IMG/VR virus record: IMGVR_UViG_3300029319_000111
Location: 9,723 to 39,667 of that record
DNA length: 29,945 nucleotides
Source of the DNA: a virus
Direction: 5' to 3' (one strand)
The notes beneath the pieces are model-generated. The model worked only from the letters and a program-made list of their open reading frames with translations, did no database searches and was not told the origin of the DNA. A program made the position numbers and the translations under genes. Each line of letters opens with the position of its first letter. The first letter of the stretch is position 1. This document shows positions 458-28,370 of this stretch, one piece after another.

Positions 458-477
458 GTTCTGATAATAATGATATT

Positions 478-505
478 ATTATAGTATATGTATGAAATTT
501 GTCAA
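478..505 (-). promoter_or_regulatory. Sigma-70-type promoter, consensus -35 and -10
   Basis: On the minus strand TTGACA (505-500) is followed after 16 bases by TATAAT (483-478), a perfect match to both bacterial consensus hexamers. It lies in the gap between a 2OG oxygenase gene and a small gene starting at 457, so transcription would begin near 471. The spacer end plus -10 (16 bases, 478-493) recurs exactly at 1004-1019. This is the form expected of T4-type early promoters. Confidence 0.75.
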
Positions 506-509
506 ATGA

Positions 510-1001
510 TCAAACTTCATAATTAAAATTAATTAAAACTCTTCTGTTTGCATCAGTGCAAGTTACTCCTCGATGTTCTAAATTAGAATCAAAAATAACA
601 GCTCTGTTTGCTACACTCTTTACTCTACCACGTTTCTTAAATTCTGTCCATCCATTATTAGTATTCATATAAAGAATAGCAGTTGTAGAGCAAGGGAAAC
701 TATCTATATGCCAAGCAGACTCTTTATGAAAAACAGTTCGTGGAGCTAGATTTGCTTTAATTCTATAAGCCTCTTTTACCTCGAAGAAAGGTAGATAAGA
801 TTCTATCTGATAGAAAGATGGAGTAGGACCAACTCCACTCCTATAAAACAAGTGAATGAAAGTCATCATTCCATCACCCTGAATGGCAGTGGAATCATTA
901 TAATACCAATCAAATTCGTCACCTAGAATAATATTGGAAAGAAACTTAAAATCAGAGTCAGGTAAAAAATTATCAAAAACTCTAATGTCGCTGTAATTCA
1001 T
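510..1001 (-). CDS. Putative Fe(II)/2-oxoglutarate oxygenase
   Basis: A 163-residue protein with the sparse signature of the Fe(II)/2OG dioxygenase fold. It has an HxD pair (His98-Ile-Asp100, in AWHIDSF), a distal iron-binding histidine (His143, in NLEHRGV) and arginines 153/154 ten residues later, placed to hold the 2-oxoglutarate carboxylate. The stretch VANRAVIFDSNLEHRG matches the usual 'G-x-lv-F-p-s...H-G' strand pair. Such enzymes hydroxylate proteins, nucleic acids or small molecules; the substrate cannot be read here. It is one of four such genes clustered around two giant tail-fibre genes, which suggests modification of virion proteins or lipopolysaccharide-related targets. A bacterial-type promoter lies directly upstream, but its -10 box almost abuts the ATG. 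Confidence 0.8.
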   Translation of the reverse strand: MNYSDIRVFDNFLPDSDFKFLSNIILGDEFDWYYNDSTAIQGDGMMTFIHLFYRSGVGPTPSFYQIESYLPFFEVKEAYRIKANLAPRTVFHKESAWHIDSFPCSTTAILYMNTNNGWTEFKKRGRVKSVANRAVIFDSNLEHRGVTCTDANRRVLINFNYEV

Positions 1002-4800: not shown

Positions 4801-6891
4801 ACCTTGTATGCGTAAAACTTCTTCTTGATTTGTAAATGGATTACCAGAACCATCATGAAGTTTAAAATTAATAAAATTACTTGCAGCAGTTGCAGAGTGT
4901 CTTGATTTAATTGAATGATATCTAATATCGTCATTGTCAGTTCTTCCTATTCTTATAACCTCTCCTTCAGTATCAATATTTGAGTGATGAAGTGACAGCA
5001 GTGGGTTAATACCACTTGAGTTTCTTACATCCAGTGCAGAATTTGGTGATGTTGCATTGATACCTAATTTACCTGCTTCAATTCTTAATGTCTCAGTTCC
5101 ACCAGCGGTGAAACCTAATTTATTACTAGCTGGATGATTGAAGAAAGTATCAGTATCATCCATCATTATAATTCGAGCATCATTATTAATGGTGTTCACA
5201 TCAAATTCAAACATCAAGGTAGTATTATCACTTTCAAAGAATTTTATTGATCCATCTGCGTAAAGATTTAAGTTACCATCACCGTTTATTTTAGCAATGT
5301 TTGTATTTTGTGAATATAAAAATAAATCATTTCCGATTACAACATCATTTGTGAACGTTGCTATACCTGCTGTGAATGTTGCTATACCTGCATTATTAAT
5401 TCTTAATCTCTCTGTGCCATTTGTATCAACAGTAAATGTATCATTTTCAGGGAAACCAAAGCGAGTATTTAAATCACCAATATGTTTAATATAATCTTTT
5501 ATAGCAAAATCGCCACCTGTTACCTGAACACCATTTCTTGCTGTTATGATACCTATAGCGTCTACATTCGTAACATCTTCGTAAGTAAGAACTCCACCTA
5601 CAGAAAGATTACCACTTATGGTAACGTTACCTGTAAAATCAGAACCAGTTGCTTGAACAGATCCAACAAACTTTGAGGCAGTGACAATTCCAGTCAATCC
5701 ATCCAATGTGATAGTTGAAACGTTACCCACATGTAAACTATTACGAACAGTAGTGATTCCTGCTTCTGGATCTATTTTTAGAATACCAAATGTAGAAGCA
5801 GAAGCACCACCAATTATTATTTCACTACCAACACCACATTGAATATTTAAACCAGTATCTTTTGCTCTAATGACGACACCATTTCCTGCAGTGGGAGCTG
5901 GTGCTGCACTAGTTGTTGAAAATATTGTTAGATGTCTACCGAATGGATCATCGGCACCGAATTGAATGTCTGCTGTGCCATTAAATTTTAGTGATGCATC
6001 TGATGCATCATAAAAAACTCCACTTAATCTTTCAAATCCTGAAGCACCCTGCACTTTTTGAGGGAAAAATACATCATCAAAGAATGACGTTACACCTACA
6101 ACATTTACGTCACCTTTGATATCTACTTCTTTAGATGGATTAGTGCTGCCGATACCAACTTTGCCATCACCTTTAATATGAACTCTTTCTAAACCATTTG
6201 TTGAAAAAACTACACTACGATTCAATTCATGTCCCAGAACAATATTATTTGGTCCGCCAACTGACTGATATCCAGAACTATTCAACTGTAGAAATGCACT
6301 ATTTAAATTTTCATCATTTCCAAATCGCAACATGCTAGTTGAATCTGTATTAACATTACGATTTAATATTCTTATTCCATCCTCTCCACCACTATAATCT
6401 ACATCAACTTTAAATCCTGGATTATCGGTTCCAATACCAACTTTACCATCAGATGTGATGCGAAGTCTCTCAACATTATTAGTTCTTGCGACTATTCTTC
6501 CATTAGTTCCAGTATCGATAGTTTCAACGTCAGTATCACCCTCAAAAATTTTATCAGAGGATCCTCCTCCACCACCACCTGTTTGATTTTGCCATGTTGG
6601 TTGTGCAGAAGGTCCTTGACTAGTTAAAACTTGACCTTGAGTTCCATAATTTGTTCCTGGCAATCCAATCTGACCAACAGGACCTATACGAATTCTCTCA
6701 CTTCCATTCGTATCTATTTGAACAAATCCATTTGTACCAGTATCAATACACTCAACCTTTGTATCTTGAGCTTGAATTTTTTCTGAAGGTTCGGGGACTT
6801 TCTTCCACGCATATCCATTCCATCGCCAGGTAATAAAACCTACGACGTGTACATCTCCGATACTGGGATTATTTGGAAAATTAACTGCCAT
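1831..6891 (-). CDS. Giant tail fibre, collagen-like and Gly-rich tip
   Basis: A 1686-residue modular fibre. Residues 1-35 (starting [14 protein letters not shown], then WRWNGYAW) look like the baseplate- or fibre-anchoring end seen in marine T4-like fibres. Residues about 75-1350 are shaft modules with repeated units such as GKVGIG(T/S)x[11 protein letters not shown](T/A)SQG...PTW (near 80, 770 and 1115) and [13 protein letters not shown]. Residues about 1365-1482 are collagen-like, roughly 35 Gly-X-Y triplets broken by three 4-residue SN(V/E)A interruptions. The tip (about 1484-1686) starts with [20 protein letters not shown] and becomes very Gly-rich, as in phage glycine-rich fibre tips and gp38-type adhesins. 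It probably trimerises and binds the host surface. A GATAAATA motif lies 5 bases before the ATG, too close to be a convincing promoter. A prolyl-4-hydroxylase-like gene lies immediately upstream. Confidence 0.88.
2448..2800 (-). repeat. Collagen-like Gly-X-Y coding repeat (fibre 1)
   Basis: This stretch encodes about 35 Gly-X-Y triplets, mostly [12 protein letters not shown] and GNQ. About 20 have proline in the Y position, the position hydroxylated in animal collagen. Four-residue interruptions SNEA and SNVA split it into four blocks. At the DNA level it is a mosaic of GGTCCTGGT-like 9-mers, which explains the long open frames on the opposite strand. Confidence 0.9.
2786..2955 (-). repeat. 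170-bp direct repeat, copy 1
   Basis: This segment of the 1686-residue fibre gene matches 9362-9531 in the 1222-residue fibre gene in the same orientation, with a constant offset of 6576. I count three mismatches, all between 2881 and 2886. It encodes the end of the shaft ([18 protein letters not shown], then [18 protein letters not shown]) and the first collagen triplets. Lower similarity continues beyond it to about 3130 / 9700. Confidence 0.9.
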
Positions 6892-7749: not shown

Positions 7750-7757
7750 TATTTATA
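7750..7757 (-). promoter_or_regulatory. T4-type late promoter TATAAATA
   Basis: An exact match to the T4 late promoter octamer on the minus strand. It fills the gap between the stop of the upstream oxygenase gene (7758) and the ATG at 7733, leaving a 16-base interval. Position and exact match make it one of the two best late promoters in the window. Confidence 0.65.
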
Positions 7758-24741: not shown

Positions 24742-24756
24742 ACTTATCCGAAAAAA
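24714..24756 (-). promoter_or_regulatory. Programmed -1 frameshift site, gp26 to gp51-like
   Basis: On the minus strand the heptamer T TTT TTC (24756-24750) lies in the correct phase (agT TTT TTC), two codons before the gp26 stop. After a 5-base spacer a hairpin follows: 5' arm 24744-24734, 9-base loop, 3' arm 24724-24714, giving 11 pairs with one G-U. Slipping back one base reads F-F-R-I-S and then enters the gp51-like frame exactly at its ATG, giving a fusion of about 300 residues. All three standard elements of a -1 frameshift site are present. Lambda gpG/gpGT and most long-tailed phages use the same arrangement upstream of the tape-measure gene. Confidence 0.78.
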
Positions 24757-25463
24757 CTCTGCAGCCCCTCTAATTTAATCTCACTTTCAACATTTGTATT
24801 TGGATTGGTAACTTTCACAAGGTGTGATAACTTAGGCATTGTTGTAAAGAAATTTTCAACCTTTTTAAATTGACTAGAATTAAGTGATTCAACAAAATCA
24901 GATAATTCTTTCTTCGTACAATCCTGATGTGACCATGATTCTTCTTCAGAATATACTTGATCTATACAAGAAGAAATTAAATCAAAAGTATCATCCACAT
25001 TCATATCATTCATATTATCAAAATTATTCTTGATAAATTCATCTAAAGATGGATACTTCATTCTTAACGTATACGTTTCATCTAATTTTATGTCTATTGA
25101 ATGATTTTCATCGGTTTGCACTTTTATATCATCAATGTTAATAGACATTGGAACCTGTGTTTTTCCATCATCTGGGCATGTTACCATGACCTCTATATGT
25201 TCACCCACAGATTTACCACGAATATTCAGAAACAAATACTCAATATCAAATGTTGATAATTTTTCAACTTTAGTTCCTTTTGTCATTATACATTTTGACA
25301 GAACATCTTTGACTGCTCTGGCAATTTGTTTCACATCCTGTGACTCCATCGCTATAATTAAAATTTTCTCCTCTTTTACTAAAAAGGGTCTGTATTTTAT
25401 TTTTCGATTAGACGATGGTAAAGTCAACTCATAAGTCGGAGTTGAAATGGTTGGTAAAGGCAT
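24744..25463 (-). CDS. 26: Baseplate hub subunit gp26-like
   Basis: A 239-residue protein (T4 gp26 is 208). It begins MPLPTISTPTYELTLPSSNR, then KIKYRPFLVKEEKILIIAM, then DVKQIARAVKDVLSKCI, the conserved opening of the T4 gp26-type baseplate family. It continues with FDIEYLFLNIRGKSVGE and a Cys-Pro-Asp-Asp-Gly turn (VTCPDDGKTQVP). In T4 it is needed to build the central hub. The C-terminal codons carry a slippery heptamer, so two products are expected: gp26 and a longer gp26-gp51-like fusion. This would make it a counterpart of lambda gpG, a tail-assembly chaperone. A perfect TATAAATA late promoter lies 25 bases upstream of the ATG. It starts the minus-strand hub operon that runs to 12360 and beyond. 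Confidence 0.85.
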   Translation of the reverse strand: MPLPTISTPTYELTLPSSNRKIKYRPFLVKEEKILIIAMESQDVKQIARAVKDVLSKCIMTKGTKVEKLSTFDIEYLFLNIRGKSVGEHIEVMVTCPDDGKTQVPMSINIDDIKVQTDENHSIDIKLDETYTLRMKYPSLDEFIKNNFDNMNDMNVDDTFDLISSCIDQVYSEEESWSHQDCTKKELSDFVESLNSSQFKKVENFFTTMPKLSHLVKVTNPNTNVESEIKLEGLQSFFG

Positions 25464-25488: not shown

Positions 25489-25496
25489 TATTTATA
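25489..25496 (-). promoter_or_regulatory. T4-type late promoter TATAAATA (gp26)
   Basis: An exact TATAAATA on the minus strand in the 42-base gap between the gp54 stop and the gp26 start, 25 bases before the ATG. It is well placed to drive the long hub/tape-measure operon. Confidence 0.7.
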
Positions 25497-25505
25497 GCAG
25501 TTTCT

Positions 25506-26360
25506 CTAAACTCTTTGGCCAACTGATATAGTTTGTCCATGTGAATATGTACTTCCATATGTACCTATTTGTGAACTTCCTGTTCTAACTTGACCAGCAA
25601 TCTCTCTATAACGTGTTCCATCATTTAGCATTTGTAAACTACCATTCATCACTCTAGATAATTCACCATTAGGATCTGATGCATACTTATATGCTTTCTC
25701 TCGTGCTGTAGCAGCAGCAGTTGCATTTTTATTTAAATCAATACCTAAAAATCTTGCCAATGATGAGGACTCTCCACAAATGTAACGATCAAAACTAAAT
25801 GATGCGGTTGCTTTGAGCACAGTGGAATTCTGATATGAAACTCTTGTTGAATTAAGACTTATAGGGAATAAACCTACAAATCTATATTCTATAAACTGAA
25901 AATGATTTTTCTCAAATTTAACTATTCTCGTATCATTTGATTTATATTCATCAGGATATTTCATCTTAAAGTAATAAGTATCACTAGATGGATCTGAAAC
26001 TGAACCACTTGAAATAAACTCCATCCAATTTTCTAAAAATCTGAGAGATTTATATTCATTATCTACATAAAAATCAAAACTTATTTGAGTAAAATTTCTT
26101 GTATGAGCAAATCTTTCAATTACACCTTGATAATCTCCTGCAGTGTTAACAGTTGCCATTGCACTACCAGGCAGAACTGCATCACTGCATAATAAACCCA
26201 CATCATCCGAAATAAATCTATCATTAATTCCTTTTCTTCTCATATATGATCTGCATGCTCCACTTGGCAAAACAAACTTTACAAGAAACTGTGATGTCTG
26301 AGCTACATTCTGTAACTTAGGCATTATGTCTGATATTCCTCTTGGTCTTGGTGCTGGCAC
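25506..26360 (-). CDS. 54: Tail-tube initiator / baseplate protein gp54
   Basis: A 284-residue protein (T4 gp54 is 320). The segments FLVKFVLPSGACRSYMRRK, LLCSDAVLPGSAMATVNTA, FTQISFDFYVDNEYKSLRFL and YRFVGLFPISLNSTRVSY follow the tail-tube-like fold shared by gp19, gp54 and gp48. In T4, gp54 binds gp48 on the completed baseplate and starts tube polymerisation. The start is a GTG at 26360 with AGAAG 8 bases upstream; an alternative ATG lies 12 codons in (MPKLQN). I prefer the GTG because PAPRPRGISDI looks protein-coding and the ribosome site is good. It is transcribed divergently from gp4 through a shared 30-bp promoter region. Confidence 0.85.
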   Translation of the reverse strand: MPAPRPRGISDIMPKLQNVAQTSQFLVKFVLPSGACRSYMRRKGINDRFISDDVGLLCSDAVLPGSAMATVNTAGDYQGVIERFAHTRNFTQISFDFYVDNEYKSLRFLENWMEFISSGSVSDPSSDTYYFKMKYPDEYKSNDTRIVKFEKNHFQFIEYRFVGLFPISLNSTRVSYQNSTVLKATASFSFDRYICGESSSLARFLGIDLNKNATAAATAREKAYKYASDPNGELSRVMNGSLQMLNDGTRYREIAGQVRTGSSQIGTYGSTYSHGQTISVGQRV

Positions 26361-26368
26361 TCTAAATA
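26361..26368 (+). promoter_or_regulatory. TCTAAATA late-type motif, gp4 operon
   Basis: TCTAAATA on the plus strand, 22 bases before the gp4 ATG, differs from the T4 late octamer only at position 2. The same octamer, inverted, lies at 26391-26384, so the two face each other across the divergent gap. A third copy precedes gp48. Confidence 0.5.
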
Positions 26369-26383
26369 CTTCTATAGTATAGT

Positions 26384-26391
26384 TATTTAGA
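26384..26391 (-). promoter_or_regulatory. TCTAAATA late-type motif, gp54
   Basis: The inverted copy of TCTAAATA, on the minus strand, 23 bases before the gp54 GTG. It overlaps the first base of the gp4 ATG, so the two promoters are interlocked within 31 bases and transcripts would overlap at their 5' ends. Confidence 0.5.
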
Positions 26392-26825
26392 TGGCTTATA
26401 GGGGAAAATACTATCCATCATTTCCCAAAAAGTATAAAGGTGATCCTACAAATATAATTTATAGGTCACTATGGGAAAGAAAGTTTATGGTGTATTGTGA
26501 TAAAAATGAAAAAATTCTTGAATGGGGTAGTGAGGAAATTGCACTTCCATATATTTCACCGCATGATAGTCGAGTTCATCGTTACTTTCCAGATTTTTAT
26601 ATTAAAGTTCAAGAAAATACAGGTAGAATAAAAAGGTACTTGATTGAAGTGAAACCACTCAAACAAACAACAAAACCGAAAAAACCAAAAAGACAAACAA
26701 AGGGTTACATTCGTGAAGCATTTGAGTATGCTAGAAATCAAGCAAAATGGAAAGCAGCAAGAGAGTTTTGTGCTGATCGAATGTGGGAATTTAAAGTAAT
26801 AACAGAAAAAGAGTTAGATATATGA
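26391..26825 (+). CDS. 4: Head completion protein gp4 (nuclease-like)
   Basis: A 144-residue protein (T4 gp4 is 150). The order MAYRGKYYPSFPKKYKGDP, YRSLWERKFMVYCD, YFPDFYIK, YLIEVKPLKQ is that of T4 gp4 homologues and of PD-(D/E)xK nucleases of the TnsA type: Pro67-Asp68, then Glu86-Val-Lys88, with an upstream Arg/Glu pair (Arg25, Glu29). In T4, gp4 acts at head completion, when the packaged DNA is cut from the terminase and the portal is closed before tail joining. It starts a plus-strand operon with three baseplate genes and overlaps the next gene by ATGA. There is no clear ribosome site; the TCTAAATA promoter lies 22 bases upstream. Confidence 0.88.
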   Translation: MAYRGKYYPSFPKKYKGDPTNIIYRSLWERKFMVYCDKNEKILEWGSEEIALPYISPHDSRVHRYFPDFYIKVQENTGRIKRYLIEVKPLKQTTKPKKPKRQTKGYIREAFEYARNQAKWKAAREFCADRMWEFKVITEKELDI

Positions 26826-27169
26826 GTCGTTTAGATCCCATAATGAAAAATTTTGTTGGTACAGAAAGTGCTGATGATTTAGCAACTGATATACTAGGTG
26901 TATTAACTGAAGGAAGTAATGTTCCTCAAGCAGGTAATTTTTATGTTTTTGTATATCAAGCAAAGACACCAGGTATTGCATATGACTCACATCCTCTTGT
27001 TGCAGTAACTGATGTATTTTCTTGGGGATTTCGTGGACTTAACTATCACTGGGGTGAAATGAGACAATATACATTTCCAGAAGTGGTAGGTGGACTATAT
27101 CAAGTAGATGAAATGGAGTTGAGAGATTTAAGAACTTTACCTTTTGTCAAAATCCTTCTAAATAGTTAA
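26822..27169 (+). CDS. Conserved T4-like phage protein of unknown role
   Basis: A 115-residue protein. The core NFYVFVYQAKTPGIAYDSHP then LVAVTDVFSWGFRGLNYHW resembles a recurrent phage pattern (aromatic-rich 'F.Y.a.......yDs.Pl......gf.GLN.H'), found in virion or assembly genes of many marine phages. The remainder (MRQYTFPEVVGGLYQVDEME) has no motif I can name. It is coupled to gp4 by an ATGA overlap and is followed by gp48, so a role in head-tail or baseplate assembly is likely. Its last codons carry the TCTAAATA promoter for gp48. A 12-A run begins at its stop codon. Confidence 0.72.
   Translation: MSRLDPIMKNFVGTESADDLATDILGVLTEGSNVPQAGNFYVFVYQAKTPGIAYDSHPLVAVTDVFSWGFRGLNYHWGEMRQYTFPEVVGGLYQVDEMELRDLRTLPFVKILLNS
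27157..27164 (+). promoter_or_regulatory. TCTAAATA late-type motif, gp48
   Basis: The third copy of the TCTAAATA octamer, embedded in the last codons of the small gene and 18 bases before the gp48 ATG. Its spacing matches the copies before gp4 (22) and gp54 (23), which supports a functional promoter motif. Confidence 0.5.
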
Positions 27170-27182
27170 AAAAAAAAAATAT

Positions 27183-28370
27183 ATGCCTAATTATCCCACC
27201 GACATGGCAGCTCAAGAGACATATTATGCTTCACAAGAGTATAAGGATAAAGTCACTGAAGCTATCAAAAATAATACGTCTCTTAAAGATACAGTATATA
27301 AAAAACCTAGTAGAAAATTTGGGGGAAGTGGTCGAAAATTTCTTAAATATCCGATTGAGAACTCAATGGGTGAGAAAACAGGAGATCGTTTATTAATAAA
27401 ATGTGTGGAATTTGAACCTCCAACTGGAACTAACGCTGGATTATCAGTAACAACAGAAAATTTGTATAAGTATGATAGTGATAAAAATAAAGAGATTCTT
27501 AAGGCTGGTGAAAAAGCAATAAATGAGAAGGGTGAAACTATAATTGGTGGTAAAGATAAAATAAAATTAGGTTTTGAGACCAGTGATGCTAATTCAAGAC
27601 TTAGTAAAGATATGAATAGCAGAACAAAATATATGATTGAACTTCCAATACCTCAAGATATCACCGACTCAAATTCTGTAACTTGGGGTGAGGATCGTAT
27701 CAATGTATTAGAACTTGCTGCACTCAATGTTGCACAAACAGCTATGGCAGGTAATATTGGTGAAGGTGTAGTGCAATCAGCAGAGGCAGCAGTTACTGCG
27801 TTAAACACTGGTGTTGAAATTCCAGGATTGACATCTGATACTCAAGCTGCGGTAAGGGCAGCATTGTCTGGTGCTGCAATAGGAGCTCTTGGTTCTAATG
27901 TAAGTGCTCGAAGTGTTATCTCACGTTCTACTGGTCAAATATTAAATAATAATCTTGAATTACTATTTCAAGGTGTTAACTTAAGAAGTTTTCCGTTTAG
28001 TATTACTTTTTCACCTCGTGGTCCTGAAGAATCAAAAGTTGTAAAAGATATTATAAGAAGTCTTAAAATGTCGATGTCTCCAAAGGCAGGAGAATTTGAT
28101 GGAAGTGGAGCTCAAGGAATATTTCTAAAATCACCAGATGTTTTTCAATTAAGGTATATGAAAGATGATGTCGATCATCCATTCTTAAATGCATTCAAAC
28201 TGTGTGCTTTGACAGGTATGTCAGTTAATTATACAAACGCAGGAACTTATACCACATATGAGGATGGAACACCCGTAAATATACGAATGAATTTAACATT
28301 TAAAGAATTAAATCCAATATATCATGAAGATTATTTACAACCAGCAGCAGGATTTGGAGTTGGATACTAA
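27183..28370 (+). CDS. 48: Baseplate tail-tube cap protein gp48
   Basis: A 395-residue protein (T4 gp48 is 364). It has gp48-type segments: RLLIKCVEFEPPTGT near 75, MIELPIPQDITDSNSVTWGE near 155, a Gly/Ala-rich helical stretch (NVAQTAMAGNIGEG) and a tube-like C-terminal half (LELLFQGVNLRSFPFSITFS, then FKLCALTGMSVNYTNAGTY). In T4, gp48 sits on the baseplate hub and, with gp54, forms the platform for the first tube ring. The C-terminal part shows the tube-protein fold shared with gp54 and gp19. It is followed by gp53 with a TAATG overlap. The A-rich leader lacks a strong ribosome site. Confidence 0.87.
   Translation: MPNYPTDMAAQETYYASQEYKDKVTEAIKNNTSLKDTVYKKPSRKFGGSGRKFLKYPIENSMGEKTGDRLLIKCVEFEPPTGTNAGLSVTTENLYKYDSDKNKEILKAGEKAINEKGETIIGGKDKIKLGFETSDANSRLSKDMNSRTKYMIELPIPQDITDSNSVTWGEDRINVLELAALNVAQTAMAGNIGEGVVQSAEAAVTALNTGVEIPGLTSDTQAAVRAALSGAAIGALGSNVSARSVISRSTGQILNNNLELLFQGVNLRSFPFSITFSPRGPEESKVVKDIIRSLKMSMSPKAGEFDGSGAQGIFLKSPDVFQLRYMKDDVDHPFLNAFKLCALTGMSVNYTNAGTYTTYEDGTPVNIRMNLTFKELNPIYHEDYLQPAAGFGVGY

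Follow-up and report, generated by a model that had tools for sequence, protein, structure and literature searches.

Putative interlocked late promoter elements with A or C at –12 upstream of gp4 in T4-like cyanophages

Introduction

The late promoter of T4 occupies positions –13 to –6, and the late promoter of phage Aeh1 reads CTAAATA (PMC1524935). A review of T4 late transcription names the change in Aeh1 at –13/–12 and calls it undetermined how consensus and variant late promoters compare in rate in vivo (PMC2988020). In cyanophages the late promoter has been given as NATAAATA, which was described in S-PM2 and also occurs before Syn9 genes (PMC2984593). A survey of cyanophage genomes used TATAAAT as the seed of its search and admitted mismatches in the round that followed (PMC3037559), so sites with C at –12 could be under-called there. 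Late-promoter prediction is reported to have failed in pelagimyophages (PMC7029224). CTAAATA does occur in one cyanophage paper, as an entry in a table listing sequences matched by CRISPRs (PMC6129581). In one open library of the literature we found no report of an interlocked pair of late promoters or of CTAAATA late promoters in cyanophages.

Results

Layout of elements and genes at the gp4 junction

The DNA analysed here, called the window, is a stretch of 29,945 nucleotides from the IMG/VR virus record IMGVR_UViG_3300029319_000111 and belongs to a contig of 43,840 bases. The source is a marine T4-like virus of cyanobacteria with P-SSM2-type cyanomyoviruses as nearest named relatives. Gene order around gp4 agrees with P-SSM2, and among annotated phage records the closest gp4 genes are those of the single-cell virus AG-345-E02 (76.4% identity) and of the Prochlorococcus phages P-SSM5 and P-SSM2 (75.7%). 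The features of the window that concern us are:

7750..7757, minus strand: A-type late element TATAAATA before a tail-fibre-assembly-like gene (PHROG), from the window scan
24744..25463, minus strand: gp26-like baseplate gene (PF12322, E 1.4e-74; PHROG_150, baseplate hub)
25489..25496, minus strand: A-type late element TATAAATA before gp26, from the window scan
25506..26360, minus strand: gp54-like tail-tube-family gene (PHROG_45, E 2.4e-31; PF23849, E 1.1e-13), heading the left late gene run
26361..26368, plus strand: putative C-type late promoter element TCTAAATA directed to gp4, adjoining the GTG start of the opposite gene
26369..26383, no strand: AT-rich middle between the octamers, 15 bases (15–26 in relatives), putative shared melting region
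26384..26391, minus strand: putative C-type late promoter element TCTAAATA directed to the gp54-like gene, with one base in common with the gp4 ATG
26391..26825, plus strand: gp4 head completion/closure gene (PHROG_218, E 1.3e-60), heading the right late gene run
27157..27164, plus strand: C-type late element TCTAAATA before gp48, within the last codons of a gp2-like gene (26822–27169)
27183..28370, plus strand: gp48 baseplate tail tube cap (PHROG_230, E 7.9e-72)

The initial annotation had described an inverted TCTAAATA pair, and we reproduced both its coordinates and its gaps. Within the 30 bases that separate the divergent gp4 and gp54-like genes, the plus octamer (26361–26368) ends 22 bases from the gp4 ATG at 26391 and the minus octamer (26391–26384) ends 23 bases from the GTG of the left gene at 26360. 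The third copy was likewise found 18 bases before gp48 (27157–27164, gene start 27183), and the exact TATAAATA reported before gp26 and the fibre-chaperone gene corresponds to the two copies in the window, at 25496–25489 (–) and 7757–7750 (–). A run of 12 A at window positions 27168–27179, between the late element and gp48, varies in length in relatives.

The left gene starts with GTG and has an in-frame ATG at 26324. Its family (PHROG_45, PF23849) is that of the gp19/gp54 tail-tube proteins, and PHROG_45 also takes P-SSM2 gp19 and AsFcp_4 gp54, so the name gp54, which its position makes plausible, is reasonable but unproven. A sequence search of the left gene against the PDB gave no match up to E 1.

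Position of the motif in the source virus

The number of TCTAAATA copies is what chance would give in the window (3 versus 2.95 expected) and near that of a reversed control pattern in the contig (4 versus 3), so that any signal is carried by position only. Each of the four contig copies is followed, 18–23 bases on, by the start of an ORF on its own strand. Three are in the window; the fourth lies beyond it and stands before a gene of 82 residues assigned to a PHROG ‘transcriptional regulator’ family. The shorter CTAAATA was found five times in the contig, each time 8–45 bases before an ORF start (0.1 expected), although one of the five, at contig positions 40183–40176 and 42 bases from the start, sits inside the upstream ORF. 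Half of the ATAAATA copies (6/12) lie in the same zone. A face-to-face TCTAAATA pair appeared in none of 300 first-order resamplings of the window.

In a general promoter scan of 26200–26600, matches to sigma-70-like promoters were at chance level (2 versus a mean of 2.0), and no terminator-like site was found. gp55 was not found among the called genes of this partial contig; its ortholog group covers 12 of the 13 genomes compared, that is, all but this one. Elsewhere on the minus strand (window 458–517 and 1002–1061), two genes have the upstream stretch ATACATATACTATAATAA in common, possibly a host-type early promoter.

A and C forms of the element in cyanophage genomes

We pooled this contig with 11 cyanophage genomes, leaving AsFcp_4 out of the pool, and counted motifs 8–45 bases before ORF starts. 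Starts in the genome scans were our own calls (the longest ATG/GTG ORF of at least 45 codons) and some element-to-start gaps are therefore wrong. The last bases were not scanned in P-SSM2 (2401), S-T4 (1082), S-SRM01 (842), and AsFcp_4 (450), and the element directed to the left gene of P-SSM2 (record 5573–5580) is missing from the P-SSM2 motif count because no start was called there.

The initial annotation had suggested comparing the motif inside genes and at gene starts. These frequencies were not equal, and there was a strong excess before starts for ATAAATA (321/567 versus 14.6 expected, about 22-fold) and for CTAAATA (158/339 versus 8.8 expected, about 18-fold). The corresponding values were 2.0 times expectation for GTAAATA (23/439) and 2.5 times for TTAAATA (33/509). 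Next came ATATATA (26/152, 3.8 expected) and ATACATA (32/289, 7.4 expected), the latter weakly enriched, and no one-base variant apart from the A and C forms was above 7 times expectation. Both the A and the C form were enriched upstream in each of nine cyanophage genomes (every P ≤ 1.1e-6); counts of ATAAATA and CTAAATA in the two further genomes were 35/56 and 7/22 in one and 22/43 and 15/27 in the other. Within single genomes the G and T forms were at or slightly above expectation, as with TTAAATA in S-SKS1 (6/72 versus 2.0). In the 250 kb of P-SSM2 that were scanned, 36 of 66 NATAAATA copies and 16 of 28 NCTAAATA copies fell in the upstream zone, compared with 1/42 and 2/19 for TTTAAATA and TGTAAATA. 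The C form is favoured in the Aeromonas phage AsFcp_4 (Angelvirus), which we take to be close to Aeh1 (CTAAATA 17/33 versus ATAAATA 5/26).

The modal distance from element to start was 20–24 bases. The element is an 8-bp TATA-like sequence with a TAAATA core and lies on the coding strand just upstream of late genes, not mainly within genes or before early and middle genes. Orthologs of gp43, uvsX, nrdA, gp44, gp55, hsp20, and uvsY were without it, as were the late genes gp6, gp14, gp16, gp17, and gp51, which had no element of their own; cobS of P-SSM2 is the one non-late gene with an element. Because only the A and C forms are strongly enriched before ORF starts, C at –12 is a regular alternative to A in the T4-type late promoter, and either base is accepted in these phages.

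Conservation of the face-to-face pair

Two IMG/VR searches supplied 160 loci, the best-scoring part of at least 596 relatives and of 98 relatives; this contig, P-SSM2, and two single-cell viruses brought the set to 164. A gp4 match was present in 155, from which we dropped one with too little upstream sequence and three in which the gene was too short. When compared by gp4 and the 50 bases before it, the 151 usable loci fell into 133 distinct sequences (107 with a slightly different key) and 39 clusters at 85% gp4 DNA identity. The gp4-directed element was sought 12–40 bases before the ATG and the opposed element in the last 14 bases before it.

Among these best-scoring close relatives, the gp4-directed element was of the C type in all 133 distinct sequences. 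An exact opposed element was present in 129 of the 133, with C in 120 of them and A in the other 9. By cluster the combinations were C/C in 32, C/A in 4, and C/none in 4, with one of the 39 clusters counted twice. The four relatives that lack the exact opposed element carry, by eye, ATACATA in its place, perhaps a weaker form of late promoter. By eye, ATACATA stands at the site of the missing second exact element of the gp4 junction in loci L052, L053, L055, L059, L182, L187, L304, L306, and L310.

We also examined 21 named phages (P-SSM2 and sets of 12 and 8 loci), using for S-SM1 the gp4 start from tblastn; the annotated start lies 54 bases upstream. Eleven of them have an exact face-to-face pair: C/C in P-SSM2, S-SRM01, S-SKS1, and Sinorhizobium phage phiM12; mixed A/C in Syn33, S-CAM3, Syn9, and ACG-2014f; and A/A in S-CRM01, P-HM1, and S-SM1. 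In phiM12, a rhizobial T4-like phage, the pair lies between gp48 and gp4 (L308:202–250). The partner gene is gp54-like in some phages and gp48 in others (Syn9, S-SM1, phiM12). Since both the partner and the A/C base vary among phages with the pair, the layout outlives each of them. Three of the 11 pairs have a long distance between the annotated left start and the opposed element (51 bases in S-CRM01, 96 in Syn33, 156 in S-CAM3), and the role of that element there is therefore doubtful. An ORF is annotated between gp4 and the junction in ACG-2014f (L183:584–1449, group I intron endonuclease) and S-SKS1 (L181:685–1460).

The remaining ten named phages lack the exact pair. Seven have one exact element only (S-T4, S-H68, S-SCSM1, S-SM2, S-SSM7, S-CAM1, and S-B43), the gp4 and gp48 elements of AsFcp_4 are arranged back to back, and P-TIM40 and S-SZBM1 have no late element within 40 bases of the junction, so that their gp48 and gp4 promoters must lie elsewhere. 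The start codons of the divergent gp48 and gp4 genes overlap (CATG) in P-TIM40 (L179:1500–1503) and S-SZBM1 (L178:1500–1503).

Across 11 genomes, face-to-face pairs occurred once in seven and never in four; the gp4 junction accounts for six of these pairs, and the one in P-TIM40 falls within an ORF. The G/T control form gave two pairs and shuffled genomes gave 0.0–0.9 pairs each, so the meaning of the pair rests on its place and conservation rather than on number. Such scarcity, like the copy number of TCTAAATA at expectation or control, is what one would see if the octamers were chance matches in an AT-rich gap. We regard this as hardly credible in view of the place and strand of TCTAAATA, the absence of the pair from resampled windows, and its conservation in 39 clusters. 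The sequence comparisons thus indicate that the pair is a real, conserved feature, new as an interlocked, A/C-tolerant form of a known late promoter. They also support the view of the initial annotation that two T4-type late promoter elements are interlocked here, and extend it beyond the source phage.

Two identical octamers in inverted orientation could instead form an operator for a dimeric regulator, and single-stranded DNA of this stretch (26355–26396) folds more stably than shuffled sequences (–5 kcal/mol, z –2.63), as expected of such a repeat. The inferred gp4 leader and gene start (26374–26420) have an ordinary fold (z –0.67). The spacing between paired elements, however, takes 11 values from 15 to 26 bases in close relatives, so helical phase is not kept, and we rejected the operator reading on this basis. 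In addition, the element is found singly before many late genes, A and C forms are mixed within pairs, and S-T4, S-H68, S-CAM1, and S-B43 retain the gp4-directed exact element alone. An operator in place of two promoters is very unlikely.

While spacing varies, the opposed element, sought within 14 bases of the gp4 ATG, adjoins that codon in 120 sequences and overlaps it by two bases in nine, and the distance between the gp4-directed element and a CAC or CAT (a possible GTG or ATG start) is –2 to +1 bases in 129/129. All 8 of the TATTTAG sites located at start codons belong to the gp4 junction. All this could be taken to mean that TATTTAG is a translation-initiation element common to both genes and not part of a promoter. 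Yet in 11 genomes only 13 TATTTA[GT] sites are at start codons (2.9 expected, summed), nine of them at the junction and the other four all TATTTAT; on these counts we rejected TATTTAG as a general translation signal. S-T4 has TATTTAG before the left GTG and not before gp4, as expected if the gp4 promoter alone survives, and the gp4-directed element is apart from the left start in Syn33, S-CAM3, S-CAM1, and S-CRM01. A purely translational role of the motif therefore seems unlikely.

Identity of the –12 base gene by gene

The initial annotation proposed that the change from A to C marks a subset of baseplate and head genes. Part of this idea holds: orthologous genes agree in their –12 base more than expected. 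Agreement in 20 groups was 0.816, compared with 0.665 (sd 0.025) when sites were re-dealt within genomes, and none of 5000 permutations reached 0.816. With 31 groups and 177 sites, the excess agreement at –12 was 0.34 (0/1000 permutations as high), compared with 0.06 at –13, 0.10–0.14 at –18 to –14, and 0.23 at –1; relatedness was controlled solely through these neighbouring positions. Sites not inside an upstream ORF gave an excess of 0.31 at –12; once the gp20 and gp4 groups were removed, this fell to 0.21 (reached by 1/1000 permutations), and –1 gave 0.24 in the same set. Sequence comparison thus suggests that a given gene tends to keep its A or C across phages, and the base may carry gene-specific meaning.

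No baseplate/head class emerged. C precedes uvsW (4/5), a NAD-synthetase-like gene (4/5), and the portal gene gp20 (9/10, despite the occurrence of all four letters at –13), and A precedes the baseplate genes gp8 (11/11) and gp25 (4/6). A is also the usual base before gp22 (8/10), gp18 (9/11), and gp26 (9/13), and C before gp4 (7/9). Moreover, A and C switch among phages at gp26, gp48, and the gp4 pair. Before gp26, 89 of 122 distinct regions have TATAAATA and 15 have the C type. Before gp48, 13 of 17 distinct regions, including the source virus, have the C type and no element was found in four; the gp48 element has C in the window versus A (TATAAATA) in P-SSM2. We also considered a copy-number rule, with A for abundant and C for scarce proteins. 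The copy numbers of gp8 and gp20 are similar in T4 but their A/C types are opposite, and this rule was dropped.

Discussion

We consider it very likely that two T4-type late promoters, both dependent on gp55, stand face to face in the 30-base gap, with open complexes that would be mutually exclusive and with C accepted at –12. Promoter activity, gp55 dependence, start sites, and mutual exclusion of the pair are predictions of this model. Each –10-like element adjoins the start codon of the opposite gene, across the gap from the gene that it would drive about 22 bases downstream. With gp55 as the phage sigma factor, late RNA polymerase would open the AT-rich middle from either side, and by analogy with T4 positions 26369–26383 may be the melting region of both promoters. 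Given T4 spacing (element at –13 to –6), transcription would start near 26374 (+) and 26378 (–), with leaders of about 17 and 18 bases, the last of which, next to the start codon, would read UAUUUAG or UAUUUAGA.

With T4 start spacing assumed, each promoter is within the initial transcribed region of the other, and since the predicted starts lie inside each other's footprint, two open complexes would exclude each other. The initial annotation's idea of polymerases competing for one site fits this geometry, which suggests that probably only one promoter fires at a time; one site would then feed two late gene runs in turn. The same bases possibly serve translation as a second role, which would explain why the elements stay beside opposite start codons in close relatives.

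It is an even call whether, with both promoters real, their overlap is a mere by-product of genome compaction without regulatory effect. At the usual element-to-start distance of 20–24 bases, both elements must fall at the ends of a gap of 30 bases, and some phages have just one exact element or lack both. Against this, the layout recurs with different partners (gp54-like, gp48) and in phiM12, and in close relatives the elements remain at the gap ends when the gap grows.

A further proposal, by analogy with T4, is that the pair reads polarity: the direction of clamp arrival would pick the promoter and the A/C base at –12 would set the strength of each side. For activation of late promoters in T4, the sliding clamp must be loaded from a break in the non-transcribed strand, and a break in the other strand switches the direction of activation (PMC2988020). 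We think such a switch improbable. If it exists, replication polarity would split the site between the head completion/baseplate cap run and the tail-tube-like/hub run. The gp4 pair would be a natural test site for the choice of direction by late RNA polymerase and a replication-derived clamp, and the gene-by-gene A/C sites make it possible to test the relative in vivo rates of the consensus and variant forms.

The cyanophage late promoter can be broadened from NATAAATA to N[A/C]TAAATA. The C type makes up about one third of the sites found (158/479), and predictions of operons and timing would therefore change.

Compared with known systems, the elements described here are like the T4 late promoter (TATAAATA, gp55/gp33/gp45) in their TAAATA core and in their place before late-gene orthologs, but differ in having A or C at –12 and in that two of them are interlocked face to face over one gap. 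C at –12 is common to this virus and Aeh1, whose late promoter is CTAAATA (PMC1524935). In AsFcp_4, another Aeromonas phage, C prevails and the elements are back to back, whereas A and C occur at about 2:1 in cyanophages. The NATAAATA promoter of S-PM2 and Syn9 belongs to the same kind of phage and genes, but the published consensus fixes A at –12 (PMC2984593). The overlapping divergent promoters of plasmid pLS20 are likewise two opposed promoters sharing DNA; that pair is part of a regulated genetic switch, whereas here both are putative phage late promoters (PMC4207663).
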